A DNA stretch of 64,000 nucleotides from Sphingorhabdus sp. EL138 (lineage in GTDB: Bacteria; Pseudomonadota; Alphaproteobacteria; Sphingomonadales; Sphingomonadaceae): NCBI RefSeq assembly GCF_945890115.1, contig NZ_CAMDCK010000006.1, forward strand, positions 1-64,000, written 5' to 3'. A program made the position numbers and the translations under genes. Positions 19,234 through 60,380 of this stretch are shown one piece after another (within the stretch, counting starts at the first letter, position 1; every line of letters starts with the position of its first letter). The notes under the pieces were generated by a model. The model did not search any database. It saw only the letters and a list, made by a program, of their open reading frames with translations, and was not told where the DNA came from.

Positions 19234-19249
19234 CCTGTCATAAGGTATG
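19234..19249 (-). promoter_or_regulatory. Island palindrome copy (P450 leader)
   Basis: CCTGTCATAAGGTATG, a 5-of-6 match to the CCTnTC-N4-GGTAGG form. It lies 62 bases before the P450 start at 19171 and 109 before the divergent gene at 19359. Candidate operator; see the regulon finding. Confidence 0.5.
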
Positions 19250-19358
19250 TTCGTTTGACGGCCGTAAAGTCCAATTTTGCTTGGATCGCTGGCTGTGTAC
19301 ATCGGCATTATGCAACGGTCGGAAATATAGGTTGCGGGTAGGTACGGAGTCGATTGTT

Positions 19359-20588
19359 ATGAGTTATATGCGTGAATTCAAGGGGTTCGCAGGTATTCGT
19401 ATCGAAGCTGATGATATTGGGTCGGCAGATGATCCTTCGATCTTATTGCTTCATGGTGGGGGGCAGACGCGAAAAGTTTGGGCGGATGTTGCCGACGCGC
19501 TGCACCAAGCCGGTCGCCATGTCATCAATCTCGATTTGCGTGGGCATGGCGGCAGCGAATGGCCAGAAGATGGACGTTATGACTTTGACGCCTACGTCGA
19601 AGATTTGCGCGCAGTTCTGTCGCAGATGCGCACAAGGCCGGTTGTCGTTGCCGCCATGCTGGGCGGATGGATCGCAACAATCGCGTTGGCAGACGAGGCT
19701 GCAACGCTGGCCGCTGGGCTCGTGCTTGTTGATCTGCCAGCGACAGATGATGTTGCGATGGCCAAAGCAGCGTCGGAAAAGCTTCGTGAGTCAGTGACGT
19801 CAAGTCTTGGCAACCCAGAATTTGATGTGCGGATTTTTGACCAGTTCGAGATGACTGGGGTGACCGATCGGATCGCGCTGGCGGCTCCGCAAATCAACAT
19901 CCCGGTTTTGTTCGTGCGTGGCGCGCTCAGTGAACTTGCAAATAGCGAGCAGGCAGCGGCCTTCGTTAGCCAGTTGTCCGATGCCGAATCTGTCGAGGTC
20001 GAAGATAGCGGTCTTCTTGTTACCGCCGAGCGTGTGGATAGCTTTAATGGTTTGCTGCTAGATTTTCTTGAACGCAAACAGCCGCGCTTTGTACCAGAAT
20101 TTCGTAAAGGTTCAGACGCACGAACGTTTCGCGACGCTTTGGGTTGTTTTGCCACCGGGATTACTGTCATCACTGCGATGGATCCGATGGGTAAACCCAT
20201 TGGATTGACCGCTAACAGTTTCACCAGCGTATCACTCGATCCGCCATTGTTGCTTGTTTGCATCGCAAACGCCGCTGGCAGCGCCCCAATCATGCGGAAC
20301 GCAGACCACTTTGCTGTCAATGTGTTGCAGATTGGTCAGCAACCAACGTCGAACCGTTTTGCCGGCAAAGGTGAAGACCGGTTCGCCAACACACCATGGG
20401 AAGTCGGCGAGTTCGGTACGCCGGTCCTCACAGGGTCTCTGAGCAGCTTTGAATGTGAACGCGATGCTTTGCACGACGGTGGCGACCACTTTATCCTTGT
20501 CGGTCGCGTGCTTAAGGCTATGTTTGAGCCCCGGCGTGATCCTTTGCTATATTTCCGCGGTAAATACCGTAGATTGCATTTTGCCTGA
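19359..20588 (+). CDS. Fusion: inactive alpha/beta hydrolase domain plus flavin reductase
   Basis: A 409-residue two-domain protein. Residues 20 to about 245 are an alpha/beta hydrolase fold (LLHGGGQTRKVW, NLDLRGHGGSEWPEDG), but the nucleophile elbow reads AAMLGG with Met100 where Ser is expected, and the late His position reads SGLLVTAERVDSF (Leu219). The related enzyme at 45194 keeps both (GASRGG, VGHMFTADRNDAF). Residues 255-409 are a flavin reductase of the HpaC/HsaB type (FRDALGCFATGITVITA, GLTANSFTSVSLDPPLLLV, DHFILVGRV), which supplies reduced FMN or FAD to two-component oxygenases. The HsaA-like oxygenase at 23815 is a likely client. The hydrolase part may now bind rather than cleave. 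Confidence 0.85.
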   Translation: MSYMREFKGFAGIRIEADDIGSADDPSILLLHGGGQTRKVWADVADALHQAGRHVINLDLRGHGGSEWPEDGRYDFDAYVEDLRAVLSQMRTRPVVVAAMLGGWIATIALADEAATLAAGLVLVDLPATDDVAMAKAASEKLRESVTSSLGNPEFDVRIFDQFEMTGVTDRIALAAPQINIPVLFVRGALSELANSEQAAAFVSQLSDAESVEVEDSGLLVTAERVDSFNGLLLDFLERKQPRFVPEFRKGSDARTFRDALGCFATGITVITAMDPMGKPIGLTANSFTSVSLDPPLLLVCIANAAGSAPIMRNADHFAVNVLQIGQQPTSNRFAGKGEDRFANTPWEVGEFGTPVLTGSLSSFECERDALHDGGDHFILVGRVLKAMFEPRRDPLLYFRGKYRRLHFA

Positions 20589-20606
20589 GGGTAAGCGAGC
20601 TAAAAT

Positions 20607-20622
20607 CCTGTCCCTTGGTAGG
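20607..20622 (+). promoter_or_regulatory. Island palindrome copy (P450/nitroreductase leader)
   Basis: CCTGTCCCTTGGTAGG, exactly 56 bases before the ATG at 20679. The spacing equals that of the copies at 32306 and 42733. Confidence 0.65.
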
Positions 20623-20678
20623 TAGCGATGCCGTTGGTATTGCATAAGTGTCCTCCATTGTATTGGGAGAAAATGGCC

Positions 20679-21896
20679 ATGCTTGGCGTTCAGGTTACCG
20701 AAGCTCCAGCCCACGTACCCAACGATCTGGTTCGCGACTATCCGATCAAAATGGGCGGCACTATAGATGAAAATCCGTTTGACCGGATCATTCCCGATAT
20801 TCACCGCACGATGCCACCGATCTTCTATTCTCTTGATGCGTATCCAGGTGGGACGCCCGCTTGGATTGTCCGGCGAGTTGAGGATTTGCAGACAATTTAT
20901 TACGATACTGACAGTTTTTCCAACAAGGATTTTGCGCCCTTTGCGTTGCTGGTGGGTGAGACGTGGAGCTCGCTTCCTGCCGAAACTGACCCGCCGATGC
21001 ATGCACTGTACCGTAAGTTCGTTAACCCCATTTTTACGCCCAAAAAAATCAACGTGCTGGACGAGAAAATCCGGCAATATGCCCGTGAATATTGCGCCGC
21101 GATTAAGGCGAAGGGCAGTTGCGAATTCATGGCTGACTTTGCTTTTGAATTCCCGATCAAAGTGTTCCTTGAACTGATGGGGCTTCCGCTTGAAATGACG
21201 GCTGAATTTCTCGAATGGGAAATGGGGCTGCTGCACACCAACGACCTGGGCGTCATCGCCGCGAGCACGCGCAAGGTCGTAGATTATCTACGTGGCGAGA
21301 TTGCCGACCGCAAGGCCAATCCACGCGACGACCTTATCAGCTACGGCGTCACCGCCGAAATCGACGGTCGTGCGCTGACCAATGATGAATTGGTTGGCTT
21401 CACTTTCAACCTGTTTATCGGCGGTATGGATACCGTATCAACCAACATCGCGTGGCAGTTCCGTCATCTTGCCGAACATCCCAATCATCAAAATACACTA
21501 CGCAACAACCCATCGATGATCCCCGATGCGATAGAAGAGTTGATGCGCGCTTATCCCGCCGTGACGACATTCCGGACGTGTGCAAAGCCGGTGACGGTCG
21601 CCGGCGTTACTTTCCAACCGGGTGACAAAATCGCGATGCCCACCAGCCTCGCCGGGCGCGATCCGGAAGCTTATGACAATGCCGATCAGGTGATATTGGA
21701 CCGCAAATCGCGTTATATGAGCTTTGGCTATGGCCCGCATCTGTGCGTGGGCATGCACTTGGCGCGCCGTGAAATGCGGATCGCGCTTGAAGAATTTCTT
21801 GCTACGATACCCGAGTTCCGCATCGCCGACGACGCGGTTGTTCAAACTCACACTGGCGGCATATTGCAGCCGGTAACGCTTCCCCTAGTTTGGTAA
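20679..21896 (+). CDS. Cytochrome P450 (second)
   Basis: A 405-residue P450 with heme ligand Cys356 in FGYGPHLCVG, the I-helix segment NLFIGGMDTVSTN (a variant of AGxxTT) and ELMRAYPA (ExxR). I chose ATG 20679 because GGGAGA lies eight bases upstream; ATGs at 20628 and 20673 are in frame but poorly placed. It should hydroxylate a hydrophobic substrate with ferredoxin-delivered electrons. The nitroreductase gene follows after 4 bases, so the pair forms an operon with its own copy of the island palindrome. Confidence 0.95.
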   Translation: MLGVQVTEAPAHVPNDLVRDYPIKMGGTIDENPFDRIIPDIHRTMPPIFYSLDAYPGGTPAWIVRRVEDLQTIYYDTDSFSNKDFAPFALLVGETWSSLPAETDPPMHALYRKFVNPIFTPKKINVLDEKIRQYAREYCAAIKAKGSCEFMADFAFEFPIKVFLELMGLPLEMTAEFLEWEMGLLHTNDLGVIAASTRKVVDYLRGEIADRKANPRDDLISYGVTAEIDGRALTNDELVGFTFNLFIGGMDTVSTNIAWQFRHLAEHPNHQNTLRNNPSMIPDAIEELMRAYPAVTTFRTCAKPVTVAGVTFQPGDKIAMPTSLAGRDPEAYDNADQVILDRKSRYMSFGYGPHLCVGMHLARREMRIALEEFLATIPEFRIADDAVVQTHTGGILQPVTLPLVW

Positions 21897-21900
21897 ACCA

Positions 21901-22470
21901 TTGGAGCTTTCCGGCCTGTTCAAAGATGCACGGACTTTCGGTGATTTTGAAGATCGAGCGGTTTCCCCCGAGCTGTTGCGGATCCTATATGATAGTCTAA
22001 AATGGGGACCAACCTCCGCCAATAGCTGTCCAGCGCGGTTTGTGTTTGTGACTTCGCCATTAGCAAAAGCCCGGCTGTTACCGTGCGTGAACGCGGGCAA
22101 TATCGAAAAGGTGAAGTCGGCTCCAGTGACGGCAATTATCGCGGGCGACACGCGCTTTTACGAATTTATGCCGCAATTATACCCAGCGCGCGATTTCAAA
22201 GCTTTGTTTCAAAATAACGAAGCATCAGCGAAAGATCTGATCGCGCGGAATGTACCAATGCAAGGCGCCTATATGATTATCGCCGCCCGCGCGCTCGGGC
22301 TGGATTGCGGACCAATGTCTGGTTTTGAATCCGAGAAAATTAATGCAGAATTTTTCCCTGATGGCCGCTGGAAGGTAAATTTTATCTGCAACCTTGGTTA
22401 TGGTGCAAAAGCCGGGCAACATTCGCGTAATCCACGCCTTACTTTCGACGAGGCATGTGTGATTGATTGA
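21901..22470 (+). CDS. Nitroreductase-family protein, RutE/HadB type
   Basis: A 189-residue flavoprotein close to the malonic-semialdehyde-reductase (RutE) branch of nitroreductases: FKDARTFGDFEDRAVS, LKWGPTSANSCPARFVFV, MQGAYMIIAARALGLDCGP and FFPDGRWKVNFICNLGYG. Such enzymes use FMN and NAD(P)H to reduce aldehydes or enones; the substrate here is unknown. The start appears to be TTG 21901, four bases after the P450 stop; no ATG fits. Tight coupling to the P450 suggests it acts on the P450 product. Confidence 0.87.
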   Translation: MELSGLFKDARTFGDFEDRAVSPELLRILYDSLKWGPTSANSCPARFVFVTSPLAKARLLPCVNAGNIEKVKSAPVTAIIAGDTRFYEFMPQLYPARDFKALFQNNEASAKDLIARNVPMQGAYMIIAARALGLDCGPMSGFESEKINAEFFPDGRWKVNFICNLGYGAKAGQHSRNPRLTFDEACVID

Positions 22471-22542
22471 TCGGATGGCCGATTCACACAATAGCGTTTT
22501 GGTATCACCTAGGTCACTCTGTGACATTCATGCCCCCTTGCA

Positions 22543-22564
22543 AATGCCTTTGATGGAAGGCATT
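22543..22564. repeat. Perfect inverted repeat before the DUF3089 gene
   Basis: Arms AATGCCTT/AAGGCATT (8 bp, perfect) around TGATGG, ending 31 bases before the ATG at 22596. It lacks a T run, so an operator or mRNA hairpin is more likely than a terminator. A second small palindrome, GTCAC-TCT-GTGAC, lies at 22513-22525. Confidence 0.55.
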
Positions 22565-22595
22565 CTTATTGAAATTTCGGTGAGAGGATAACGCT

Positions 22596-23726
22596 ATGAT
22601 TACGACGTTGCTTATTGCGGCGGCAGCAGCCACGAATCCGATTCCGAATGACTATAGTCTTGCGCAAAACTGGCTATGCCGACCCGGTCGCCGGGATGCG
22701 TGCACGGTCAATACCGACATCACCGCGATCGCAGCGGACGGAACCATCGCCGTCCGCAAATCGACAAAGGCTAGAAATCCCAAAGCTGACTGCTTCTTTG
22801 TCTATCCCACCTTATCTTCCGATGAGGGGGGTAATAGCGACATGGTTGCCAATGATGAGGAACGCAGGGTCATCGAGACGCAATTTGCCCGATTCGGTGA
22901 AACATGCCGGACCTTTGCGCCGATCTATCGCTCGGTGACGATCTCGGCACTACGCGCATTACTGATGGGAAAGCCAATTTCGACCGACCGCGAACTTAAT
23001 TATAACGATGTTCGGGATGCTTGGCGGCATTATCTTGCGACCGATAACCAGGGGCGGCCGTTTGTGCTCCTCGGTCATAGTCAGGGCGCGGGATTGCTAA
23101 AACGGCTCGTTGCGGAAGAAATCGATGGCAAGCCAACTCAGAAATTAATGCTCTCGGCGATGCTGGCAGGAACGAATGTGCTGGTTGCGAAGGGTAAAGA
23201 GCTGGGTGGTGACTTTAAATCTACACCGCTGTGCCGCAAGTCGGATCAAACTGGCTGTGTTCTGGCGTGGGTAACATTTAGGGAGGCTGCTGTTCCGCCT
23301 ATAAACGCAAGATTTGGACGTACTGACATTGCGGACCGCGAAGTCGCTTGCACCAATCCGGCTAAACTGAGTGGCGGCAATGCTCCTTTGCAAGCTGTGC
23401 TTCCAAGGGAGAGTGTCGGCGCTGACATGGCAGTGTCTCCGACATCGTGGACGAGTGACCAGAAGCTGATCACAACCGGCCACGTAAGCGTGCCCGGACT
23501 GTATTCAGGGCAGTGCGTTTCCGCAAATGGCGCAAATTATCTCGCCGTAAGGCTTAGCCTGGGGCTTCCAAATGGACGGGTCCTTGACCCGGGCGGCGAC
23601 CTAAAATTTGGTCCCATGATCGCCAAAGACTGGGGTTTGCATCTGCTTGATATCAACATCGTACAGCAGGATATGGTCGATTTAATCGGGATTCAACTAT
23701 CCGCCTGGGAAAAGAGCAGGCCGTGA
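22596..23726 (+). CDS. Exported DUF3089 hydrolase-like protein
   Basis: A 376-residue protein with a short signal-like N-terminus (MITTLLIAAAAATNP) and the DUF3089 core: CRPGRRDACTVNTD, ADCFFVYPTLSSDE, and the nucleophile elbow LLGHSQGAGLLKRL of an alpha/beta hydrolase. Members are thought to be esterases or lipases; the natural substrate is not known. AGAGGATAACGCT precedes the ATG. It is alone between the nitroreductase and the convergent HsaA-like gene. It could release a hydrophobic island substrate from an ester, which is only inference. Confidence 0.82.
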   Translation: MITTLLIAAAAATNPIPNDYSLAQNWLCRPGRRDACTVNTDITAIAADGTIAVRKSTKARNPKADCFFVYPTLSSDEGGNSDMVANDEERRVIETQFARFGETCRTFAPIYRSVTISALRALLMGKPISTDRELNYNDVRDAWRHYLATDNQGRPFVLLGHSQGAGLLKRLVAEEIDGKPTQKLMLSAMLAGTNVLVAKGKELGGDFKSTPLCRKSDQTGCVLAWVTFREAAVPPINARFGRTDIADREVACTNPAKLSGGNAPLQAVLPRESVGADMAVSPTSWTSDQKLITTGHVSVPGLYSGQCVSANGANYLAVRLSLGLPNGRVLDPGGDLKFGPMIAKDWGLHLLDINIVQQDMVDLIGIQLSAWEKSRP

Positions 23727-23814
23727 ATTAGTTGTTCCCGGGACGTACCAAATGCCGTTGCAGGGCAGGCTATGGGCCCAGCACCCCCTTGGGGCGCCGG
23801 GCCGATATTCAAAA

Positions 23815-25041
23815 TCAGTAAGCGCCAGGTGGCGAAATCTTGTCGCCCCCTGCGATATCGCGGCCATAGATCTCATAACCAATCGTTGGGATATTCTGGA
23901 TGTGGCGCAGGGCCATTGAGACATCCCTCCAATAGCGGCTGATGGGCTTATCAAGCATGAAGCCTGACGACCCTGTCTGAAACATCAGCGATTCCGATGC
24001 GCTGTGGATCATCTTGATCATCTGGGCACATTGTGCACGATGTCGGGCTTTGTCTGCGATTGTCAGCTCGGCACCGGTCAGCGCGACTTTGTCCAATTCG
24101 CCCACAAGATGGAACAGGACCAGCTTGGCGGTATCGAGCATGGCGGCTGCCTCACCCAGATCACGCATATATGCTCCCGAGCCGGTGCGCGGGCCAATGA
24201 GAGTAGTGAGAACAGGCTTGCCAGATTCTGCAGTTACGATTTCCAGCATGGCTTCAACCGCGCCGATCAACTGCGCGATGCCGGTGGTCCGCACAACCGG
24301 AACCACGGGCAGAACGTCCGACGGGGCACCAAAATGTCGCTTGGTTCGGTCAATCTGGCCCGCGCGCTCGTTCATTAACACCATCTGACCTTCGGGGATG
24401 AACACGTCGGTCGCGACGCTGATATCCGATCCCGTGCCCTGCATTCCGGTGACATACCAAGCGTCCTTGATTGTGAGATCCTTGAAAGGAATATAGCACA
24501 TGCTGATACCGGGAACGACCGGGCCGTCATAACCTTCCAGCACAACGCCCTGCTGAGCCCAAGTGGACTGGCGAGAGCCAGAGGTGTAGGGCCAGGAACC
24601 GTTGATGATCCAGCCGCCGTCAACTTTACGGGCCTTACCGGGTGGGTTATAAGCACCGCAAACGGTTGCCGGGCCATTTGCAAAGACGACATCCTGGACG
24701 CTGTCTGGCGCGAGGCTCGCGACCCAGCTGGTTCCATTAATGATTTGCGCCACCCAGCTTATAGACGGATCGCCTTTGGCGATTTCGATCTGCATTCTAC
24801 AAAAATCGGTCAAAGAAAGACCGACGCCACCGAGGCGCCTCGGTAACAAAGCGGATAGGATATTGTTGTCGAACAATGCTTTCTCCGCCGTCTTAGTCGG
24901 CGCGCGAAGTTTCTCGCCAGCGGCGGCTTCGGCCTGAAATAGCGGGCGGAGTTCTTTCGCCTTGGCAATCATCGCGTCGGCTGTGGCGCGATCGGCAAAG
25001 GTTGTAAGGTCTTCTGTTCTCAAGTTTGCAACGGTAGCCAT
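23815..25041 (-). CDS. HsaA-like flavin-dependent monooxygenase (acyl-CoA dehydrogenase fold)
   Basis: A 408-residue protein with the acyl-CoA dehydrogenase fold but of the class D oxygenase type: LLPRRLGGVGLSLTDF, ISWVAQIINGTSWVA, GGWIINGSWPYTSGS and a C-terminal LDKPISRYWRDVSMALRH. HsaA (3-HSA hydroxylase of cholesterol catabolism) and related enzymes use reduced flavin from a separate reductase to hydroxylate phenols or polycyclic substrates. The only flavin-reductase domain in the island is the fusion at 19359. The start ATG 25041 has AAGGAC upstream. It is the last gene of the operon that begins with the Rieske alpha subunit. Confidence 0.85.
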   Translation of the reverse strand: MATVANLRTEDLTTFADRATADAMIAKAKELRPLFQAEAAAGEKLRAPTKTAEKALFDNNILSALLPRRLGGVGLSLTDFCRMQIEIAKGDPSISWVAQIINGTSWVASLAPDSVQDVVFANGPATVCGAYNPPGKARKVDGGWIINGSWPYTSGSRQSTWAQQGVVLEGYDGPVVPGISMCYIPFKDLTIKDAWYVTGMQGTGSDISVATDVFIPEGQMVLMNERAGQIDRTKRHFGAPSDVLPVVPVVRTTGIAQLIGAVEAMLEIVTAESGKPVLTTLIGPRTGSGAYMRDLGEAAAMLDTAKLVLFHLVGELDKVALTGAELTIADKARHRAQCAQMIKMIHSASESLMFQTGSSGFMLDKPISRYWRDVSMALRHIQNIPTIGYEIYGRDIAGGDKISPPGAY

Positions 25042-25043
25042 AT

Positions 25044-25691
25044 TCAGTCCTTTCCTATGTCTTTCTGTTCTTGCGCGATTTTTAGCGCCCATTTCTGCAC
25101 ATTTTCGGCGGTATCGTTCCACACTTGCAGCCACTCATCGCTGGCGGGCACGAGCAAGGTGCTGAGCTGCATCCTGACCAGGGTTTCGACAAAGGCATCA
25201 CGGTTGAATGCTCCGCCGACCAATTTTTCAAGATAATCGAACACCGGATCGAGCGCATCGCGCACTGCGATTTTGTAGCGCCCGAACCGACTGCGGAAAA
25301 AGGCTAAGTGAAAGCCGGGCTCTACTTCAAAAACCCGATCTGGCGAGTTTTCGCTAGTGTAGCGTGCGTAGAATTGCATTACTGCTTTGAAGCGCTCGAT
25401 AGGGTCGGCGATGCCTTGCCCTGCGTCACGGATACCGTTCTCAAAACCAGTGCACACAAACTCGCTGACCGCCGCTAGCACTTCGTCTTTATTTGAGAAA
25501 TATCTGTACAGCGTGCCACGTGAAACGCCGCTTGTGTCGATGATATCGCTCATCGATAGCCGTCGCGCCCCCCGGTTGGCGATCACATCGATCGCGCCGC
25601 TAAGGATCTTAATGACGCTGGGAGAAAGATCGACATCATGCGCTATTGTGGGCCAGGGTTCAGGATATGCTTCGGCGGCGACCAGTCTCAT
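25044..25691 (-). CDS. TetR/AcrR-family regulator
   Basis: A 215-residue repressor. The N-terminal HTH (about residues 30-75) reads AIDVIANRGARRLSMSDIID followed by TSGVSRGTLYRYFSNKDEVL, the TetR signature; the remainder is a ligand-binding helical domain. It lies inside the Rieske operon, overlapping the SDR by 4 bases and ending 2 bases before the HsaA-like gene. The palindrome at 29706-29736, in front of the operon's first gene, is a reasonable operator for it, giving autoregulation. The effector is unknown. Confidence 0.9.
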   Translation of the reverse strand: MRLVAAEAYPEPWPTIAHDVDLSPSVIKILSGAIDVIANRGARRLSMSDIIDTSGVSRGTLYRYFSNKDEVLAAVSEFVCTGFENGIRDAGQGIADPIERFKAVMQFYARYTSENSPDRVFEVEPGFHLAFFRSRFGRYKIAVRDALDPVFDYLEKLVGGAFNRDAFVETLVRMQLSTLLVPASDEWLQVWNDTAENVQKWALKIAQEQKDIGKD

Positions 25692-26503: not shown

Positions 26504-27666
26504 GCCAGTTCCCCCACTTTTGTATCCATTTCCACACGCTGTTCGGTTTTTTGGCGGGTCAGAACATAGCCGCGAACAAAACCTCGATCGTCGATGAATA
26601 GATGTTTGTCGCCGTCTACATCACTTTCCACACTGTGCCATTCGCCGACACAATTGCGCGCGGGGGGCAGCAAGTTGACCGGCAGCAAAGTTGTTTTTAC
26701 TTGAACGGCCAAAGGCGGAAAGCGAATTTCAGTCGGTGTGCCGAGCGCACTTTGCGCAATCCCGCGTGCCGCCGCCATGATCGGAGTGACATAAGCGGAA
26801 ATGCCGTGCTGATATTCTGCACAATCGCCGATTGCGTAAACATCGGGGTCGCTTGTCTGGCCATATTGGTTGACCTTGATACCAATGCCGATGTCAATTC
26901 CGGCCTCTTGCGCCAGCGCAACATTGGGACGAAGGCCAACCGCCGAAAGTACGAGATCGGCTTCGATGTTGCTGCCATCATCCAGCGTTGCGACATAGCC
27001 TGCCCTATCGCCGACATAATTGATCGCTACTACTTTGCGGTCCAGATGCCATTCGACGCCTTCGCTTGCCAGCGCGTCGCGAACGCTTTCCCCTACAGCG
27101 GGCGGAACTAACTGCGCGAGGGGCAAGGTTAAGATATCAACAACTACGACCTGATAATGGTTCGTAATCAGGTCATTTGCGAACTCTGTTCCAACAAGGC
27201 CCGAACCCATTATCAATACGCGAGCTTGATCAGGAAGCTGCTCACGGAAATACGCGTAATGATCCAGCTGGTTCACCGAAATAGCCCGGTGCGCGGCGTC
27301 GCCTTCGATTGCGGGTCGGTAAGCAGCCGCGCCCATCGCAAGAATCAGCCTGTCATAGGGGATCGGGCCGCCTGTCGTACAGAGTGCCTTACCCGCCCGG
27401 TCAATCGATTCCGCCTCCCGACCGATACGCGCGTCGAGCTTCAACTGGGCGATCATCTTTTCGGCGCTTGAAGTCACTAAAGTTTCCGAGGTGTTGCCCT
27501 TGGCCAAAGCAGTCGACAGTGCTGGCTTTGAATAGAAATGGCCGTTCTCAAGCGTTACCATCGTCAGCTTGGCGTCGGGCGATAGTCTGCGCAATTCGCG
27601 CAGCACACCGAACCCGGCTAATCCGCTGCCGACAACCACAATCGAGGGTGGGGCGGTTTTTCCCAT
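26500..27666 (-). CDS. FAD-dependent reductase of the rubredoxin-reductase type
   Basis: A 388-residue two-dinucleotide-fold flavoprotein: FAD motif VVVGSGLAGFGVLREL, HFYSKPALSTALAKG, NAD motif ILIMGSGLVGTEFAND (one Leu/Met order uncertain in wording: LIMGSGLVGTEFAND), and DVYAIGDCAEY. This resembles rubredoxin/ferredoxin reductases that pass NADH electrons to small iron-sulfur proteins. It lies between the Rieske dioxygenase subunits and an SDR, so I infer it feeds the ferredoxin at 29769 and then the dioxygenase or the P450s. Start ATG 27666 is 5 bases after the beta-subunit stop. Confidence 0.9.
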   Translation of the reverse strand: MGKTAPPSIVVVGSGLAGFGVLRELRRLSPDAKLTMVTLENGHFYSKPALSTALAKGNTSETLVTSSAEKMIAQLKLDARIGREAESIDRAGKALCTTGGPIPYDRLILAMGAAAYRPAIEGDAAHRAISVNQLDHYAYFREQLPDQARVLIMGSGLVGTEFANDLITNHYQVVVVDILTLPLAQLVPPAVGESVRDALASEGVEWHLDRKVVAINYVGDRAGYVATLDDGSNIEADLVLSAVGLRPNVALAQEAGIDIGIGIKVNQYGQTSDPDVYAIGDCAEYQHGISAYVTPIMAAARGIAQSALGTPTEIRFPPLAVQVKTTLLPVNLLPPARNCVGEWHSVESDVDGDKHLFIDDRGFVRGYVLTRQKTEQRVEMDTKVGELA

Positions 27667-27671
27667 AAAGC

Positions 27672-28253: not shown

Positions 28254-28269
28254 TACTTCGATCCTCCCT

Positions 28270-29658
28270 TCACGCTTCGCTCATCAGCTTGTGATATGCG
28301 AGCCACCAGTTCCACTGCGTATCGTCTTTGGTAAAACCGGGGTACAGCAAGCCTCCACCCTTCCAGCCTTCGGGCCGTTCATGCCCATGCAGCGCCTTGT
28401 ATTTCAGCGTCATATGCTTACTAACACCGCCGCGTGCATTGCGCATGATAACAGGCCAGACGTCGGCATCATCCTGTTCAATAGTACCCGATGTACCGGT
28501 CGATTGAATCGAATTTTGTAGCATGTCTCGCTTCATCTGCTCGGGCGCATCTTTTTCGGCAAAGATGAAGTTTACAAACTCGACTTTGTCCGGGCCCTTC
28601 GGCACATAAGTGTGTAGCGCAAGTGCACCTGACGATCCGCCGTCCATGCGTGGCGCAAAGATAAAGGCAATCAAAATATTGGGGAACATACCACCCACTT
28701 GCGGCGGAATGGTTGCGAGCTGTTCAACTTGATCTTCGGAAAGATTATTGAACAGCTGCGGGATCATTTCCTTGGTAATCCCAGGAGGTGTCAGCAAATT
28801 GAGCCGTTCGACAGTTGACTTGCCTTCAAACGAAATGTCGGCGAACATTTTGAAGGTTTTCTCTGCCTCTAGGCAGCGCAGCGAGTGGCCCTGTTCGCAA
28901 GACACATCAACACCGTACATGCCGGGAGCCTGATCATAGATCGACTCCGCCGTGCCGCCCATGATACCGCCCTCCATTAGCGAGCGGTGAAGAGTCAGTG
29001 TGTGAAAGCCATCCGAACCGGATTGTTCGCCAGGCACTTTCCAATTGCAAGGAATGACGAAACGTTGCGGTGGGCCGAGCAGTTCGAGGCCGTTATCGGT
29101 GCGACAAAATAGCTGATCGAGATAATATTTCATGTCGCCCAGATATTCGTCAAACGACGGGCCATCCAAATTCCAAGTCGCAAAAATCATCCCGCCATAT
29201 AGCGCAACGCGGGCTTTCTTGAGTCCGAGTGTCGCCTTATCAACGTCATTGCCGTGCATTTTTTCGCGCTCGACCGGCGCACCTATAAAATCACCATTCG
29301 GCTTGAACGCCCATCCGTGATAGATGCATTGGTGGATAGGCTTATTGCCTGCTTCGCCCAAACAAACGCGCATTCCGCGGTGCGGGCAGACGTTGAGCGA
29401 GACGTTGACACCACCTTCCCGGTCGCGTGCAATGATGACATTGTCTTCGGCCATGTCGCGAACAATGAAATCGCCGGAATTGGGAATTTCACTTTCGTGG
29501 CCGAGCAGCAGCCACGTTTTTGCAAAAATTCGCTCCATCTCGATGTCGTAAAGCTCTTTATCCGTCATCACGCGTAACGACACCTCGTTCGAGTCACGCA
29601 TTATAAGATCGTCGAGGGTAGTTCCGTCGCTAAGCGTAAGGCTAGATTTCTGAAGCAT
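28270..29658 (-). CDS. Rieske ring-hydroxylating dioxygenase alpha subunit
   Basis: A 462-residue catalytic subunit. The Rieske [2Fe-2S] ligands are Cys91/His93 (NVCPHRGMR) and Cys111/His114 (HQCIYHGW). The mononuclear iron site is seen in SDGFHTLTLHRS (two His; the Asp lies later). It adds O2 to an aromatic ring to give a cis-diol, or hydroxylates. ATG 29658 has AGGAGAT upstream, preferred over 29679. It starts a six-gene operon (alpha, beta, FAD reductase, SDR, TetR, HsaA-like) and is divergent from the ferredoxin gene. Confidence 0.95.
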   Translation of the reverse strand: MLQKSSLTLSDGTTLDDLIMRDSNEVSLRVMTDKELYDIEMERIFAKTWLLLGHESEIPNSGDFIVRDMAEDNVIIARDREGGVNVSLNVCPHRGMRVCLGEAGNKPIHQCIYHGWAFKPNGDFIGAPVEREKMHGNDVDKATLGLKKARVALYGGMIFATWNLDGPSFDEYLGDMKYYLDQLFCRTDNGLELLGPPQRFVIPCNWKVPGEQSGSDGFHTLTLHRSLMEGGIMGGTAESIYDQAPGMYGVDVSCEQGHSLRCLEAEKTFKMFADISFEGKSTVERLNLLTPPGITKEMIPQLFNNLSEDQVEQLATIPPQVGGMFPNILIAFIFAPRMDGGSSGALALHTYVPKGPDKVEFVNFIFAEKDAPEQMKRDMLQNSIQSTGTSGTIEQDDADVWPVIMRNARGGVSKHMTLKYKALHGHERPEGWKGGGLLYPGFTKDDTQWNWWLAYHKLMSEA

Positions 29659-29705
29659 GGCGTCATCTCCTAATCGCACATATTATTTGGCGTTGAGCGG
29701 AGTTA

Positions 29706-32305: not shown

Positions 32306-32321
32306 CCCTTCTTTGGATAGG
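32306..32321 (+). promoter_or_regulatory. Island palindrome copy (luciferase-like gene leader)
   Basis: CCCTTCTTTGGATAGG, exactly 56 bases before the GTG at 32378; it also lies 76 bases before the divergent NTF2-fold gene. Confidence 0.6.
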
Positions 32322-36751: not shown

Positions 36752-36767
36752 CCTTTCCACAGATAGG
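36752..36767 (+). promoter_or_regulatory. Island palindrome copy (sulfotransferase/GMC leader)
   Basis: CCTTTCCACAGATAGG, 52 bases before the sulfotransferase ATG (36820) and 30 before the divergent GMC start (36721). Confidence 0.65.
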
Positions 36768-42732: not shown

Positions 42733-42748
42733 CCTTTCCGTTGGTAGG
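42733..42748 (+). promoter_or_regulatory. Island palindrome copy between two NTF2-fold genes
   Basis: CCTTTCCGTTGGTAGG, exactly 56 bases before the ATG at 42805 and 50 before the divergent start at 42682, so it could serve both. Confidence 0.65.
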
Positions 42749-48656: not shown

Positions 48657-48672
48657 CCTATCGAAGGTTAGG
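48657..48672 (-). promoter_or_regulatory. Island palindrome copy (acyl-CoA dehydrogenase operon leader)
   Basis: CCTATCGAAGGTTAGG, 34 bases before the start at 48622, placed in the short gap after the preceding SDR gene. Confidence 0.55.
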
Positions 48673-51094: not shown

Positions 51095-51109
51095 CTCTCT
51101 CTCCAAAGA

Positions 51110-51949: not shown

Positions 51950-51972
51950 GATAATCTCCGTATGATATGGTT

Positions 51973-52746: not shown

Positions 52747-52756
52747 AGCCTTCTCC

Positions 52757-54427: not shown

Positions 54428-54485
54428 GTCCTCTGCCTCCCGCTTGCCTTGACATTAGGACTGGCAAAGGCACGACGGCGTGCCG

Positions 54486-54501
54486 CCTTCCGCACGGTAG
54501 G
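54486..54501 (-). promoter_or_regulatory. Island palindrome copy (acyl-CoA synthetase operon leader)
   Basis: CCTTCCGCACGGTAGG, 58 bases before the GTG at 54427 and directly after the stop of the preceding SDR gene. Confidence 0.55.
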
Positions 54502-55284
54502 TCAGCTGCATCCGACGATCCCGCCGTCTACCGGAATTTCCGCTCCGGTGATGTAGGCACCGGCGCGCGAAGAGAGAAATACGATCGTGCCAGCGATTTC
54601 GTCGGCGCGGCCCATGCGGTGCATCGGGATTTTGTCGAGTAAGGCGCTATCCACCACTTCATCATCGCGCATATGCGCCGTCATGCTGGTTGGGAAAAAG
54701 CCCGGAAGCACGGCGTTTACGTTGATATTTCGGTCTGCCAAGTCACCAGCCAGATCCCGGCTAAGCATGTGCACGGCGGCTTTGCTCGCGGAATAGCTAT
54801 AGGCGCTTAGTTTCGCAGTCGTCGCTCCGGCAATCGAGCCGATGTTGATCACGCGCGCCGGATCGTCAGGCGTGCCCGCAGCAGTCAGTTCAGGCAAAAG
54901 CTCACGCACGAGCGTGAACGGTGTTTGGACGTTCACCATCATCACGCCCGGCCATGCTTTGTCGGGGAAGGTGTCGACCGTTCCACCCCACGTCTTGCCT
55001 GCATTATTGACCAACACGTGCAACGTGCCGCCGACGGTCTCGCGGTAGCGCTGTGCAAGGTCGACCGCAGCTTCTGGCGTGGACAGGTCGGCGGGCAGGG
55101 CGATGCATTTGCCCAGCGCCGCCATTTCGGACGCTGCTGCCTCACAAATATCGGCTTTGCGCGAGGTAATGGCGACCGTCGCGCCCGCACGAAGCAGGCC
55201 TTCCGCGATCATCCGGCCAAGCCCCTGCGCACCGCCGGTGACGAGCGCATTTTTGCCCGTTAAGTCGAATAATCCAGTGTTCAT
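54502..55284 (-). CDS. SDR-family oxidoreductase (RhlG-like)
   Basis: A 260-residue short-chain dehydrogenase with TGGAQGLGRMIAEGLLRAG, VNNAGKTWGG, INIGSIAGATTAK and YSASK. Paralogue of the SDR at 48676. It is the last gene of the operon acyl-CoA dehydrogenase - quinone-oxidoreductase-like - SDR, overlapping the middle gene by 4 bases. Possible beta-hydroxyacyl-CoA dehydrogenase for the product of the acyl-CoA dehydrogenase route; not proven. Confidence 0.92.
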   Translation of the reverse strand: MNTGLFDLTGKNALVTGGAQGLGRMIAEGLLRAGATVAITSRKADICEAAASEMAALGKCIALPADLSTPEAAVDLAQRYRETVGGTLHVLVNNAGKTWGGTVDTFPDKAWPGVMMVNVQTPFTLVRELLPELTAAGTPDDPARVINIGSIAGATTAKLSAYSYSASKAAVHMLSRDLAGDLADRNINVNAVLPGFFPTSMTAHMRDDEVVDSALLDKIPMHRMGRADEIAGTIVFLSSRAGAYITGAEIPVDGGIVGCS

Positions 55285-56282
55285 ATCGTAACCACGACTT
55301 TACCGAATTTGTGCGAGCTTTCGAGGTAGAGCAACGCTTCTTTGGCTTCTGCAAGCGGGAAGCTGCGTTCGATGACGGGCTTGATCTGGTGCTTTTCAAC
55401 GAACGCCAGCATGTCGCGGAAATCTTGCGGGTCGCCGACTTGGCTGCCGACAATGCTAGCGCTTTTCAGGAATATGCCTGTCGCCGTGATTTCGAATTTG
55501 TCCCCTGCGGTTGATCCGTAAATCACAATCCGCGCGCCTGGGTTGATTGCGCGCACATAATTGGCAAAGCTTGGGGCAGGGGCCCCATCCAGAACGACAT
55601 CAACGCCGCCCGTCAGCTTGCCGACTTGCTTGCGCCATTCGGGATCGGTGTAGAGCAAGCCACCCAGCGCGCCCATTTCTTTGGCACGAGCAAGGACATC
55701 TTCGCTTTCGCCGGTCACATAAACCTTGGCGCCAAGTGCCACCGCAAACGCCAAGCCAAAAGTCGCGACGCCGCCGCCAATGCCGCTGATTAAAAGCGTT
55801 TCGCCCTCTTTTAACTGTCCCTTGAACATCAATGCACGCCACGCGGTAAGGCCAGTCAGCACGGTCGCTGCGGCTTCTTCAAACGTCATGAAAGCGGGCT
55901 TTGGCGCGAGGCTTTCGGCCGGCACGCAAACATATTCGGCAATTGTGCCGCCGTGCGGCATTCCCAGCAGCCCGAATTCAGCTTGCGGCGCATGACGGTT
56001 GTTGCCCCAATCAAGACCTGGGTAAATCACCACCTCGTCGCCAACGCTTGGGCCAGATACGCCTTCTCCTAGCATATCTACTACACCTGCGCCATCGCAG
56101 CCCATCGTGGTCGGCAGGCTCATTCCAGGATAGAGGCCGCGTGCAATCCACATTTCGCGGTGATTGACCGACGCGGCTTTGATCGCGACGCGCACCTCAC
56201 CCGCTTTGGGTGTGGGCGTTTCTACTTCTGCCACGCGAACTGCCTCCGGGCCTTCGGTCGTTTCTTGGTAAAGTGCTTTCAT
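55281..56282 (-). CDS. Zinc-free MDR-family NADPH reductase (quinone-oxidoreductase-like)
   Basis: A 333-residue medium-chain dehydrogenase/reductase. It has GEVRVAIKAASVNHREMW without the catalytic zinc Cys, TTMGCDGAGVVDMLGEGV and the NADP motif LISGIGGGVATFGLAFAVALG. Zinc-free members reduce quinones or enones, including enoyl thioesters. ATG 56282 gives the usual MKALYQ start. It lies 19 bases after the acyl-CoA dehydrogenase. Confidence 0.9.
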   Translation of the reverse strand: MKALYQETTEGPEAVRVAEVETPTPKAGEVRVAIKAASVNHREMWIARGLYPGMSLPTTMGCDGAGVVDMLGEGVSGPSVGDEVVIYPGLDWGNNRHAPQAEFGLLGMPHGGTIAEYVCVPAESLAPKPAFMTFEEAAATVLTGLTAWRALMFKGQLKEGETLLISGIGGGVATFGLAFAVALGAKVYVTGESEDVLARAKEMGALGGLLYTDPEWRKQVGKLTGGVDVVLDGAPAPSFANYVRAINPGARIVIYGSTAGDKFEITATGIFLKSASIVGSQVGDPQDFRDMLAFVEKHQIKPVIERSFPLAEAKEALLYLESSHKFGKVVVTI

Positions 56283-56301
56283 GTTCGGCCTTTCGGATGT
56301 G

Positions 56302-57465
56302 TTAAAAGGAGCGGGGCAGGCCGAGCGATTCGGCGATGCCATTGCGGATCATTTCGTTGGTCACAGGGCCGATGCGCCACAGCCGGGAATCGCGCCAATA
56401 TCGCTGCATATCGGTTTCGGCCGAATAGCCCATGCCACCCATCATCTGGATACCGAGGTCGGCGGCTGCGTTGGCATTTTCCGATGCCATCAACTTCAGC
56501 ATATTAGCTTCTTTGCCAACATTCTCGCCCTTCGCCTGTTTGGCGGCGCAGTAATGCAGCATCAATTCGGTCGAGGTCTGCATCGTCGCAATATCGGCGA
56601 TGTAATGCTGCAGTATTTGGAACTGGCCTATATATTTACCGAATGCTTTGCGCTGCATGACATAGGCCAGCGCGTCTTCGAGCACGCCGTCAATCACACC
56701 GAGACAGAACGCCCCTACCATGATCCGTTCGTTGTTCAGCGTTGGCAGCAAAGTGTACCAAGCCTTGTTGGGCTCTGCGAGAACGTTTGCGTCGGCCACG
56801 AACACATTGTTGTAAACAACGGTACAGCTACCCATCGAACGCATGCCGAGCTTAGGCAAAGGCGTGATTTTGACGCCTTCGGATGCTGCTGGCACCCAAA
56901 ATAAAGTTAGCCCCTGATGCTTTTTCTCGACTGTTTTGTCGGTGCGCGCGATGCATAGGAGGTAGTCGGCCACATGCGCGGAAGAGCTCCAAATCTTTTC
57001 GCCGTTCAGCACCCAACCACCGTCAACACGTTCGGCGGCGGTGGCAAGATTGCCTAGCAGATCAGTACCACCACCGGGTTCGGTAAAGGAGATAGCAGCC
57101 TTCAATCGACCTGCCGCTATTTCTGGTAAAAACTTGGCCTTTTGTTCGGGCGAACCATAAAGTCCGATGGACTTTGATCCGGCGAAAGACGTGATGCCCC
57201 AAATCCACGCAAGGCCGCCAAGCGACCGCGCCAGCTCGCGTGCGAGGAGCATTTGCATCAGAACATCGCCGCCCTGACCGCCAAATTCCTCGGCGATACC
57301 CACCCCGTGAAAACCGGCTTCGGTAAACTTGTCCCAAAGCGCATGCGGATAGTTATGTTCGTCGGCTTCGAGCTTGCGCGACCATTCTTTGGGAATCTCG
57401 GTATCGACCCAACGGCGAACGACGTCGCGGAACGCTTGATGTTCCTCCGGCAGGTCGAAATCCAT
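56302..57465 (-). CDS. Acyl-CoA dehydrogenase (second)
   Basis: A 387-residue FAD enzyme paralogous to that at 47459: VGIAEEFGGQGGDVL, ISFTEPGGGTDLL, MGGMGYSAETDMQRYWRD and the same GLPRSF end. It too has Pro at the MCAD-type Glu position (IGPVTNEMI) and a Glu in GVLEDALAYVMQRKAFG. ATG 57465, with GAGGGTG upstream, is preferred over the GTG at 57474. It heads a three-gene leftward operon and is divergent from the LuxR-type regulator, with two palindromes between. Confidence 0.92.
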   Translation of the reverse strand: MDFDLPEEHQAFRDVVRRWVDTEIPKEWSRKLEADEHNYPHALWDKFTEAGFHGVGIAEEFGGQGGDVLMQMLLARELARSLGGLAWIWGITSFAGSKSIGLYGSPEQKAKFLPEIAAGRLKAAISFTEPGGGTDLLGNLATAAERVDGGWVLNGEKIWSSSAHVADYLLCIARTDKTVEKKHQGLTLFWVPAASEGVKITPLPKLGMRSMGSCTVVYNNVFVADANVLAEPNKAWYTLLPTLNNERIMVGAFCLGVIDGVLEDALAYVMQRKAFGKYIGQFQILQHYIADIATMQTSTELMLHYCAAKQAKGENVGKEANMLKLMASENANAAADLGIQMMGGMGYSAETDMQRYWRDSRLWRIGPVTNEMIRNGIAESLGLPRSF

Positions 57466-57550
57466 TTGGGTCACCCTCGCTTTTTGGCGCCTCCAAACGG
57501 GGCACTCTCTTTGATGGTGATGCTGTTGGCCAAAAGATATGGCGCGGCAA

Positions 57551-57566
57551 CCTATCCAGAGATAGG
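57551..57566. promoter_or_regulatory. Island palindrome, best copy (regulator/dehydrogenase divide)
   Basis: CCTATCCAGAGATAGG: perfect 6-bp arms. It lies 105 bases before the regulator gene at 57672 and 85 before the divergent acyl-CoA dehydrogenase start at 57465. A second copy is centred 31 bases away, about three helical turns. Confidence 0.7.
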
Positions 57567-57581
57567 AATATTTGCTTGCAG

Positions 57582-57597
57582 CCTATCTATCTAAGGC
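57582..57597. promoter_or_regulatory. Second palindrome copy beside the regulator gene
   Basis: CCTATCTATCTAAGGC: left half perfect, right half degenerate. Same face of the helix as the copy at 57551 (31 bases apart). Confidence 0.5.
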
Positions 57598-57671
57598 CGA
57601 TACAAATCTGATCGACAGTAAGCCCGGGCAATCGACCTTGGCGCTGCGAAGCGGAACGAGAGGATACCGAT

Positions 57672-60356
57672 ATGGGTGTTGTTTCTACAACCATTGCGCC
57701 GCCAAAGGTCGCGCACCAATATATTCTTCGCGATAGAGTCGAACGGCTCGCCGAACCCGTTGGCGCGGCGCGAGTGGTTATCCTCTCTAGTCCTGCAGGC
57801 TTCGGCAAAACGACCGCGATGCTCCGCTGGGCAGAAATTTTCAGAGACGAAGGGCGACCTGTGCTATGGATTGCCGCCCGTGCTGGCATCGACGGGCTCG
57901 ACTCGTTCTTGCAATCGTTGCGGGCAGCAGGTGTTGGTTCCTGGCTGGCAGAAGGCCTGAAGGATAGACATATTTCCGCGCATGACTGGCTAGTACATTT
58001 GTCGGTCAAGTCTGGCCCTCGGCCAGTGCTGTTCATTGATGACGCGCAGCTGTTGTCGCAGGAGATATGCGACTTTCTCGGCCAGCTTATCGCCAGCGCA
58101 AGAGATTCGATTACAACGGTCATAGCTTCGCGCGGCGGATCGCGCCTGAACGTTGCCCGCATGCGGTCGCTTGGTCACCTTGTTGAAATCGGTGTACGTG
58201 ATTTAAGTTTTGAAACCGACGAAGCCGTCCGCTTTATCCAGCAGGAAATAGACGGCCCGATTGCAACGTCTGAGGTCCAGCGGTTGGTTGTCGATACCCA
58301 AGGATGGGCTGCGGGCCTAATCATCGCGACCAAGGCCTGGCAACGCGACCAGCGCGAAGGGGTGCCGCCCGAAGGCGGAACGACCGGTTTGCGGCATGAG
58401 TTTGCCAGCTATTTCCATGAAGAAGTGTTCGAGCTTCAAAATCAGGAGGTTCGCGATTTTCTCGTCGATACCTCGATATTAGACGAATTGTCGCCCGCCG
58501 CCTGCGCGGCGGTGGTTAGCAACGCCAAGGCGCGGAACATACTTGAACAGGTTTTTGAAGATGGCTTATTCCTGTCCGATCTTGATCGGGAGCTTAGTCG
58601 CTACCGCTATCATACCCTGTTCCGTGAAATGGTGCTCGGTCGTTTAATGCGCCGGGCACCGGAGCGCGCTACCGAATTGCATCGCCGCGCCAGCACCTAT
58701 TTTGTCGAAACTGGTGATTTGTCGCGTGCGTTGGAGCACGCCATGTTGTGCGGGGATAAAATTTTCCTTGCCGATCAACTTGAGTTACTTGCCGAACCAA
58801 TGACCTACAGCGGCCTTTTGTACCGCATCGACGAGCTTGCAAGCGATCTGCCCTGGGAACTGCAATCGACCCGTCCTGCGCTATTGCTGGCGATGTCATG
58901 GCGCAGATCGCGCCGTCTGGCGTTTAAATCGTCTGAACGCCTCATTGAAGCAGCCGAAGCCGTCATTACCGCGCGCATAGAGAGTGGTGAATATAGCGAG
59001 TATCAACACGAACAGATGCTATTCCAAGTCAGGCATCGCCGCATCATGCTCGAAGCAGCGCGCGACAACATGGTCTATGTCGAACATGAATCGGAAACGT
59101 TGTTGGCCGATTTGGGTGACGACCATCCCTATTTGAGCTGCACGTTGCTTGCTCAGCTTCTGTCGGCCCGGCGCGAACTCTATCATTTTCATGACATGCT
59201 GCGGTTAGAGGCCGAACTTCGCAAAGCACTCGGAAGGCCCGGGTCGGATTTTGCGTCGATCGCGCTCAAATCTTCGGTCGCACCCACTCTGGTAGCACAG
59301 GGCAAAACACGTATGGCGCGACAATTCCTTGAAGAAGCGCATGAACTAGCGCGTGAAATGGATTGGCAGATATCCGGGCTTGCGGCGCTTCCCGCATTGC
59401 CTTTGGCCGAAATTCATTATGAATGCGGCGATCTCGACCGTGCCGGGGAGTTGGTAGAGCGTTATCTGCCATCAATAAGGCAATGGGGTTTCGTCGATCA
59501 GTTGGCATCAGGATATATCGTCAGGGCGCGTCTAGCGGCAGCCGATGGCGATTATCAAAGCGCGCTATCCGGTCTTGAAGAAGCGCAATTGGTAGCCATC
59601 GAATGCGGGCTCGACCGGCTTCGCGCGCTGATCCTTTCCGAACAGGTGCACATGCTTGTGAAGACCGGACAAGTCGAACAGGCCGAGCAATTATTCTATT
59701 CAAGCGACCTTTGCTTTGAAGGCGAGCCGGTTCCAACCATGAATCCGACGCGGCTCAACGAATGGATGGCGATTGCTTGGCTCCGGTTGGAAATGCACCG
59801 CTTCCGCCTTGTCTGTTCGCGCAAGATAGCCAAACGCTGGTTGGAATTTGTTCGGCGCAGAGGCGCGGTCCGTTCATCGGTGACCTTTGAACTGCTTTTT
59901 GCCCAGATTGCGGTGCTTTCGGGCAATCGTTCAGAGGCCAGACGTGCCGTGCGTGCCGCGGTAGAGTTGGCCGAACCCGGCGGCTGGGTGCGCCCGTTTG
60001 TTGATGAAGGTGAGGCGATTTCATCATTGTTGGTCGAAGCGTATGCCAACGGTCCTGAACTTGACACGCCAGTTGACCGCTTTGCAATGCACCTTGTTTC
60101 GGTAATGCGAGGCACGACGCAGGCCGACGCGGATGAAGAGGATGATGATTTCGGCTTAGGCAGCGGTCTTTCGTTGCGTGAGGTGGAAATATTGACGATG
60201 GTAAGCGGTGGCCTGCGCAATCGTGAAATTGGCGATCGGCTTGGCCTGACCGAAGGTACGGTCAAATGGTATATGCAGCAAATTTATGACAAACTCGGCG
60301 TCAGACGGCGACCACAGGCGGTTATTCGCGCGCGTCAGCTCGGGATATTGTCGTGA
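57672..60356 (+). CDS. MalT/AlkS-type LuxR-family transcriptional regulator
   Basis: An 894-residue regulator. The N-terminal NTPase has Walker A PAGFGKTT (residues 41-48) and a Walker B region VLFIDDAQLL; the middle is helical TPR-like repeat sequence; the C-terminal 60 residues form a LuxR HTH (LREVEILTMVSGGLRNREIG, then LTEGTVKWYMQQIYDKLGV). Large ATP-dependent LuxR proteins of this kind usually activate catabolic operons when bound to an inducer and ATP. It is the only pathway-scale activator in the island, and the palindrome shared by island leaders lies beside it, so I infer it controls them. It precedes the F420 operon. Confidence 0.92.
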   Translation: MGVVSTTIAPPKVAHQYILRDRVERLAEPVGAARVVILSSPAGFGKTTAMLRWAEIFRDEGRPVLWIAARAGIDGLDSFLQSLRAAGVGSWLAEGLKDRHISAHDWLVHLSVKSGPRPVLFIDDAQLLSQEICDFLGQLIASARDSITTVIASRGGSRLNVARMRSLGHLVEIGVRDLSFETDEAVRFIQQEIDGPIATSEVQRLVVDTQGWAAGLIIATKAWQRDQREGVPPEGGTTGLRHEFASYFHEEVFELQNQEVRDFLVDTSILDELSPAACAAVVSNAKARNILEQVFEDGLFLSDLDRELSRYRYHTLFREMVLGRLMRRAPERATELHRRASTYFVETGDLSRALEHAMLCGDKIFLADQLELLAEPMTYSGLLYRIDELASDLPWELQSTRPALLLAMSWRRSRRLAFKSSERLIEAAEAVITARIESGEYSEYQHEQMLFQVRHRRIMLEAARDNMVYVEHESETLLADLGDDHPYLSCTLLAQLLSARRELYHFHDMLRLEAELRKALGRPGSDFASIALKSSVAPTLVAQGKTRMARQFLEEAHELAREMDWQISGLAALPALPLAEIHYECGDLDRAGELVERYLPSIRQWGFVDQLASGYIVRARLAAADGDYQSALSGLEEAQLVAIECGLDRLRALILSEQVHMLVKTGQVEQAEQLFYSSDLCFEGEPVPTMNPTRLNEWMAIAWLRLEMHRFRLVCSRKIAKRWLEFVRRRGAVRSSVTFELLFAQIAVLSGNRSEARRAVRAAVELAEPGGWVRPFVDEGEAISSLLVEAYANGPELDTPVDRFAMHLVSVMRGTTQADADEEDDDFGLGSGLSLREVEILTMVSGGLRNREIGDRLGLTEGTVKWYMQQIYDKLGVRRRPQAVIRARQLGILS

Positions 60357-60364
60357 TGTGACAG

Positions 60365-60380
60365 CCTATCTTTGGAAAGA
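60365..60380 (+). promoter_or_regulatory. Island palindrome copy (F420 operon leader)
   Basis: CCTATCTTTGGAAAGA, left half perfect, 61 bases before the ATG at 60442 and 8 bases after the regulator stop. It resembles the copy at 32306 through the shared CTTTGGA core. Confidence 0.5.

Follow-up and report, generated by a model that had tools for sequence, protein, structure and literature searches.

The window analysed here is the whole of positions 1–64,000 of contig C6 (125,791 bp) of Sphingorhabdus sp. EL138, a contig that makes up 5.4% of the 2.31 Mb genome. A catabolic island runs from 17.3 kb in the window to the end of C6 (125.8 kb). The C6 genes scanned, which were called with a simple in-house caller, resemble those of polycyclic or steroid-like catabolism, and a substrate of steroid- or terpenoid-like nature is suggested by likeness of the predicted proteins, namely matches to KstD, to HsaA/XiaF and to Rieske dioxygenases. 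Three features of the island are needed at the outset:

57672–60356, + strand: MalT/AlkS-type (LAL) LuxR regulator, 894 aa, with TPR_MalT and a C-terminal GerE HTH (recognition helix KWYMQQIY)
60442–64000, + strand: BKACE, bifunctional CofGH and the start of an F420-dependent NADP reductase, followed by CofE and CofD, on C6 to 66034
25044–25691, − strand: TetR-family gene in a dioxygenase operon without a palindrome, a rival regulator of that unit

The regulator carries the Pfam domains TPR_MalT (2e-27), GerE (1.1e-14) and nSTAND (7.2e-9), and its N-terminal NTPase module matches the MalT structure PDB 8bob_C (5.9e-32). With NTPase, TPR_MalT and GerE HTH all present it belongs to the LAL (MalT-type LuxR) proteins; its score against the MalT equivalog (NCBIfam PRK04841) is 237.6 bits, below the cut-off of 537. 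It is the only full-length match in the window genome. The regulators of G016 (same genus group) and of L042 (a named Sphingorhabdus MAG) are 99% identical to it, while G021, of the same genus, has only a 24% identical LAL protein. Since the regulator is at least 99% identical in just two of 25 same-genus genomes, the window genome included, and homologous islands lie on plasmids, one of them conjugative, horizontal spread of the island is suggested.

Copies of the palindrome

A palindrome with the consensus (A)CCTNTC-N4-GRNAGG(T), whose strong copies are of the CCTATC-N4-GATAGG type, recurs on the island. Copies were scored with a symmetric matrix trained solely on regulator-upstream sites from 43 loci of other genomes, 40 of which have a site with at most two mismatches (23 distinct strings). 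The copies in the window are as follows:

57551–57566: perfect palindrome CCTATCCAGAGATAGG, 105 bp from the regulator and 85 bp from the divergent acyl-CoA dehydrogenase gene 57465; matrix rank 1; conserved upstream of regulator relatives
19234–19249: weak site resembling the putative operators, 62 bp upstream of P450 gene 19171 (−) and 109 bp upstream of 19359 (+); score 5.2, rank 43
20607–20622, + strand: putative operator, 56 bp before P450 gene 20679; score 12.3
32306–32321: putative operator, 56 bp upstream of luciferase-like monooxygenase gene 32378 (+) and 76 bp upstream of SnoaL-like gene 32229 (−); score 10.8
36752–36767: putative operator, 30 bp from GMC oxidoreductase gene 36721 (−) and 52 bp from sulfotransferase gene 36820 (+); score 18.3
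42733–42748: putative operator midway between the divergent SnoaL-like genes 42682 (−), 50 bp, and 42805 (+), 56 bp; score 11.8
48657–48672, − strand: putative operator, 34 bp upstream of acyl-CoA dehydrogenase gene 48622 (−); score 16.7
54486–54501, − strand: putative operator, 58 bp upstream of acyl-CoA ligase gene 54427 (−); score 10.8
60365–60380, + strand: putative operator, 61 bp before BKACE gene 60442; score 11.1

Beyond the window, matrix matches on C6 are:

66603, 81931, 97127, 98396, 100195, 107228, 113802, 116407, 120083 and 125067: further sites of the series
91627: weaker site
71756: site inside a called gene

A preliminary description of this DNA had listed ten 16-mers, and each is found once on the + strand of the window, where it was said to be. 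Eight are strong copies, the one at 19234 is weak yet well placed, and the one at 57582–57597 (+) is no copy at all. In the last, four of the six right-half bases differ (matrix rank 124); it occupies the stretch that separates the −35 box from the −10 box in the predicted regulator promoter and, the near-identical L042 excepted, is not kept among 29 relatives inspected. The spacing of 56 bases ahead of 20679, 32378 and 42805 is exact, and the further spacings of 52, 58, 61 and 62 belong to genes 36820, 54427, 60442 and 19171, respectively. The copy adjoining the regulator gene is indeed the best by matrix rank. The housekeeping part (1–17,200), whose GATAGG-type hexamers noticed earlier were described as having no paired half-site, has a sole match of at least 8, which lies within a gene at 264 (score 8.3). 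The 34 bp distance of the 48657 site recurs on a Croceicoccus plasmid (L098, site 11944, score 8.7), and in 37 of 56 named loci a site with at most two mismatches lies 2650–2900 bp past the regulator start, like that at 60365.

Enrichment against chance

On C6 the pattern CCTATC-N4-GATAGG occurs six times with at most one mismatch, against none for a reversed-pattern control, and 14 times against six with at most two; at the one-mismatch level, spacers of 0–3 and 5–12 yield 0 or 1. The whole genome has eight sites with at most one mismatch and 61 with at most two (controls, 1 and 43), and six of those eight lie on C6 (binomial p 6.6e-7). The two others, C3:43155 and C23:19532, are taken as chance occurrences because the first lies within an ORF and the second overlaps an ORF end. 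Across 56 named loci (1.06 Mb), 42, 100 and 185 sites have at most 0, 1 and 2 mismatches, and the reversed control gives 0, 1 and 34.

A matrix scan had been proposed in the preliminary description, with equal frequency inside coding sequence as the outcome that would speak against an operator. Run with the matrix trained on other genomes, the scan gives 18 matches of at least 10.5 on C6, 16 of them intergenic, where intergenic DNA makes up 7.0% of the contig (p 5e-17); the sites are enriched in the intergenic DNA of C6, and equal frequency within coding sequence is not observed on C6. At a score of at least 8 there are 22 matches, 18 of them intergenic. Eight of the ten sites listed earlier are among the 18 strong matches. 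Permuting the matrix columns 999 times gave a mean of 0.24 intergenic matches and a maximum of 6; one permutation of 1000, which left the consensus unchanged and gave 16, was omitted. The reversed contig still yields eight matches of at least 10.5, against 18 on the real one.

Two of the 18 strong matches, 71756 and 27414 (score 10.9), lie inside called genes, as does a weaker match at 18561 (9.0). For 71756 (score 12.4), which is counted as coding, an ATG 50 bp away was considered as the true gene start and rejected as out of frame; a GTG, 79 bp from the site and 17 codons ahead of the MFS domain, is the closest start in frame. On the Croceicoccus plasmid these 16 letters recur in intergenic DNA, whereas on C6 they lie within a gene as called. 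A match at 69491 lies within a gene and has identical letters in several relatives, and was set aside as coding conservation.

Placement relative to genes

Twelve of the 18 strong C6 sites stand 50–64 bp ahead of at least one start codon, and the remainder are 34 to 137 bp from a start or inside called genes. Several sites between divergent genes are nearly equidistant from the two (50/56, 52/57, 54/57, 57/63 and 64/63 bp). The claim that the palindrome marks most transcription units is roughly borne out: among gaps of at least 60 bp, a site scoring at least 8 is present in ten of 15 divergent and six of 12 tandem ones. Convergent gaps have none in 16, only five of these being at least 60 bp long. 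The further claim of a single pathway-wide operator would hold for most of the island. Control would nevertheless not be fully pathway-wide, because the Rieske-dioxygenase operon 29658–23815 and some other units are without a site; in the matrix scan of C6 gaps no palindrome was found in front of that operon, which starts at 29658, nor in the divergent gaps 78485/78557 and 29658/29769. The operon encodes an aromatic-ring dioxygenase alpha subunit, a rubredoxin-binding-domain reductase, the TetR protein listed above and an HsaA/XiaF-like monooxygenase, and the intragenic match at 27414 falls inside it.

On the NCBI-annotated plasmids of Croceicoccus marinus and Novosphingobium resinovorum, all six matches of at least 10.5 on each are intergenic, and at a score of at least 8 the counts are seven of eight and six of eight, respectively. 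One Croceicoccus marinus plasmid site lies just 14 bp ahead of the annotated regulator start.

Association with the regulator clade

Relatives of the regulator were taken from 55 loci (L043–L097), found partly through the peptide KWYMQQIY, which selects for the helix and not for the DNA site. L083, which gave no match, L076, with just 29 bp of sequence ahead of the gene, and L082, a protein fragment, were left out, and 52 remained. In 47 of these a site with at most two mismatches lies within 260 bp upstream of the start; the other five (L073, L077, L081, L087 and L091) have no such site upstream, though their helix is the same. Among 28 other LAL genes (L014–L041, 21–29% identical) none has an upstream site, three having a string with three mismatches. 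The site-bearing relatives share the helix (T/A/S)EG(T/S)(V/I)KWYMQQIY, which the other LAL genes do not have; in L094 the HTH is missing and the site is still there.

In four Burkholderiaceae loci (L089, L090, L096 and L097), whose regulators are 29–31% identical, the palindrome is perfect. No other C6 protein (at least 40% identity, at least 60% coverage) was matched in flanks of up to 10 kb at these loci, so the site appears to travel with the regulator and not with the pathway. Co-occurrence with regulator orthologues, which the preliminary description had named as a check, is thus seen, and the comparison of 47 of 52 relatives with none of 28 other LAL genes supports its proposal that the putative operator belongs to the 57672 regulator. 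L082, on a contig binned as Paraburkholderia, encodes a sphingomonad-like regulator fragment with the HTH and has two good sites; the contig is possibly mis-binned or a recent transfer.

Whole-genome counts point the same way, as a blunt measure. In a survey of 298 family genomes, in which at most three regulator candidates per genome were scored, the six with a regulator at least 50% identical have 8, 6, 10, 10, 22 and 14 sites, the 22 being the most among the 298 and belonging to a genome with three regulator copies. Three genomes with 31–32% identical regulators have 6, 8 and 4 sites against controls of 3, 6 and 6, which is no clear excess; the same-genus G010, where no regulator was found, has nine, and G108 has eight against a control of eight.

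Predicted promoter anatomy

Dereplication of 128 sites on C6 and in relatives left 82, of which 55 have an A at the position 23 bases downstream of the palindrome (p 5e-16); among the C6 sites taken by themselves the count is 14 of 22. This A would be the −11 A of a −10 box, and the palindrome, its centre then at about −42.5, would take the place of a −35 box; the −10 signal rests mainly on this single base, the remainder of the box being weak. TTG at offset 9 is found in none of the 22 C6 structural promoters. In the regulator direction, 34 of 43 distinct relatives do have TTG there. The regulator promoter of the window is predicted to consist of:

57576–57581, + strand: predicted −35 box TTGCAG, corresponding to the TTG at offset 9 in relatives
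57599–57604, + strand: predicted −10 box GATACA, after a 17-bp spacer; 14 of 43 relatives have [GT]A[TA]A at offset 32

From the offset-9 TTG and the −10-like word at offset 32, the regulator promoter seems to have its own −35 box, with the palindrome about 10 bp higher. L086 has an upstream site in one count and none in the promoter-offset count, for which different start codons were taken. A CTGCAA pattern from a free motif search of the downstream flank clusters at one offset and was discarded, as it probably reflects related promoters counted repeatedly.

The preliminary description had placed the palindrome in transcribed leaders. This is probably not the case: the +23 A, read as −11 A, would put the palindrome at about −42.5, so that 'leader' should read 'promoter', and the predicted leaders would be only ~16–30 nt long.

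Alternative explanations and proposed mechanism

Comparison of loci shows that the motif co-segregates with the regulator clade and occupies predicted promoter regions, and that the two halves of the palindrome vary independently, as two half-sites read by a protein dimer would. On this evidence we consider it highly probable that the palindrome serves as operator for the LAL/MalT-type LuxR regulator 57672–60356, which would activate most island promoters.

TetR proteins bind palindromes, and three TetR genes (25044–25691, C6:78557–79249 and C6:107307–107948) lie on the island, so that the palindrome could be the operator of one of their products, repressing by promoter overlap. On both plasmids, too, the annotation has TetR genes next to the Rieske gene. 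Only the third island TetR gene, however, has an upstream palindrome (63 bp), and the gaps 78485/78557 and 29658/29769, two of the three expected to hold TetR operators, have none. Homologues of the three TetRs (at least 40% identity, at least 60% coverage) occur in 3, 0 and 0 of the 55 loci with flanks of up to 10 kb, whereas the palindrome precedes nearly all regulators of the 57672 type, and its predicted position, upstream of a −10 box and without a −35 box, fits an activator; a TetR operator is therefore quite unlikely. In an RNA reading, the copies would be 6-bp hairpins in transcribed leaders, acting as attenuators or stability elements. The sequence could fold as a stem with a 4-base loop, and the spacing of 50–64 bases ahead of start codons in 12 of the 18 strong sites would suit a leader. 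Pairing is not kept by compensatory change, however: across 21 C6 copies (weak ones and 71756 included, 27414 left out) it amounts to 81.7%, against 84.4% in shuffles, of which 482 of 500 are as high, and pair 4–13 is broken in 13 of the 21. Moreover, a site midway between divergent genes would lie in both leaders only if the transcripts overlapped, and the −10-like base lies downstream of the palindrome. We hold such a hairpin to be very improbable.

The intragenic matches at 71756, 27414, 18561 and 264 are what might be expected if the palindrome were a repeat scattered over the island or had arisen there by chance. Against this stand the preference for divergent over convergent gaps (ten of 15 against none of 16, with only five of the 16 reaching 60 bp), the constant spacing from start codons and from the +23 A, and the finding that only the palindrome is common to the C6 sites, their flanks being different. 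We give this explanation hardly any credence.

For the regulator-operator reading, a mechanism can be sketched. A catabolic intermediate (together with ATP, as in MalT) would activate the regulator, and a dimer of its GerE domain would bind the palindrome at about −42.5, where the −35 box is missing, and recruit RNA polymerase. A symmetric site midway between divergent genes could serve both promoters. At the regulator promoter, where a −35 box appears to be kept, the palindrome would lie one helical turn higher (about −52.5), which may allow basal expression plus feedback. The regulon would comprise most of the island, the F420 cofactor genes included, and not every operon.

Relation to known systems

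The Vibrio fischeri lux box has an outer ACCT...AGGT inverted repeat, is centred at −42.5 and is bound by a GerE-type HTH dimer. The C6 palindrome shares the outer ACCT...AGGT and would likewise be centred at about −42.5 and bound by a GerE-type HTH; it differs in its central bases, which is 4 bp here and 6 bp in the lux box. The regulators differ as well, since the 57672 protein is a large STAND/TPR protein and Vibrio fischeri LuxR is an acyl-homoserine-lactone receptor. In a class II layout of the lux-box type, the +23 A (55 of 82) and the missing offset-9 TTG (0 of 22) are the observed elements and the start is predicted. MalT of Escherichia coli is alike in its N-terminal NTPase module, TPR_MalT region and C-terminal GerE HTH. 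MalT boxes, however, are asymmetric and arrayed, whereas the sites here are single palindromes, and the 57672 protein falls below the equivalog cut-off.

Of the described systems, the nearest is that of AlkS from Pseudomonas putida GPo1 (PalkB/PalkS2). Excerpts of PMC8784404 present AlkS as a MalT-like LuxR protein that activates a catabolic cluster, has an inverted repeat for operator and is subject to positive feedback. According to the same excerpts, the AlkS repeat is 20 bp long and lies upstream of the target promoter, with an operator upstream of its own promoter too, and two AlkS proteins, 32% identical, each use such a repeat, one being able to activate the target promoter of the other (PMC8784404). 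In the 57672 system an inverted repeat likewise lies upstream of putative targets and of the regulator. As excerpted, PMC12740625 places the AlkS repeat upstream of a −35 box, whereas the structural promoters of the 57672 system appear to have no −35 box. AlkS acts on alkane genes, and the two are likened by layout; the AlkS operator letters were not found in the excerpts of PMC8784404 and PMC12740625.

TeiR/TesR of Comamonas testosteroni is, in excerpts of PMC8700777 and PMC6678751, a LuxR-type positive regulator needed for steroid-catabolic genes, and in this respect, as a LuxR-type regulator of testosterone/steroid degradation, it is like the 57672 protein. It differs in its description as a membrane protein that has kinase activity, and those excerpts name no operator (PMC8700777, PMC6678751). 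Elsewhere in the excerpted texts the steroid regulators are other proteins (PMC8700777, PMC6678751, PMC12882949) and the palindromes are other ones (PMC8700777, PMC12882949). In open-access papers, no description of the site was found among the matches listed, whether for its half-sites or for the part played by LuxR/LAL regulators in the catabolism of steroids or of sphingomonads. A lux-box/AlkS-like operator of this undescribed regulator clade looks new as a predicted element, the kind of switch being already familiar.

Predicted regulon and F420 genes

The genes adjoining the sites encode P450s (20679, C6:98467), luciferase-like enzymes (32378, C6:100274), a sulfotransferase (36820), acyl-CoA dehydrogenases (48622, 57465), a CoA ligase (54427) and a KstD-like flavoprotein (C6:113874); the TonB receptor gene C6:116560 is 137 bp from a site. 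Downstream of the 60365 palindrome, F420 biosynthesis genes lie within the catabolic island. F420 genes follow the regulator on the plasmids of Croceicoccus marinus and Novosphingobium resinovorum too; on the latter CofH, NpdG and CofC are annotated, with no CofE or CofD in the stretch inspected.

To our knowledge, few binding sites are known for the LAL regulator family, and the putative operator would tie this family to a specific DNA code and helix. It would also turn an island of ~110 kb, mostly of unassigned genes, into one predicted regulon, whose members in dozens of sphingomonads should be recognisable by their sequence alone. Induction of F420 biosynthesis along with the pathway is a further prediction, and identifying the inducer would help to pin down the island substrate. 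More broadly, we lean somewhat towards the view that the KWYMQQIY clade, in Alpha-, Beta- and Gammaproteobacteria, reads one 18-bp operator and in sphingomonads runs mobile, partly plasmid-borne polycyclic-degradation islands, switching on F420 biosynthesis together with F420-dependent catabolic enzymes. If this is true, cofactor F420 would be made only when the substrate calls for it. Also on the island, 19359–20588 is a single frame encoding an alpha/beta hydrolase–flavin reductase fusion.
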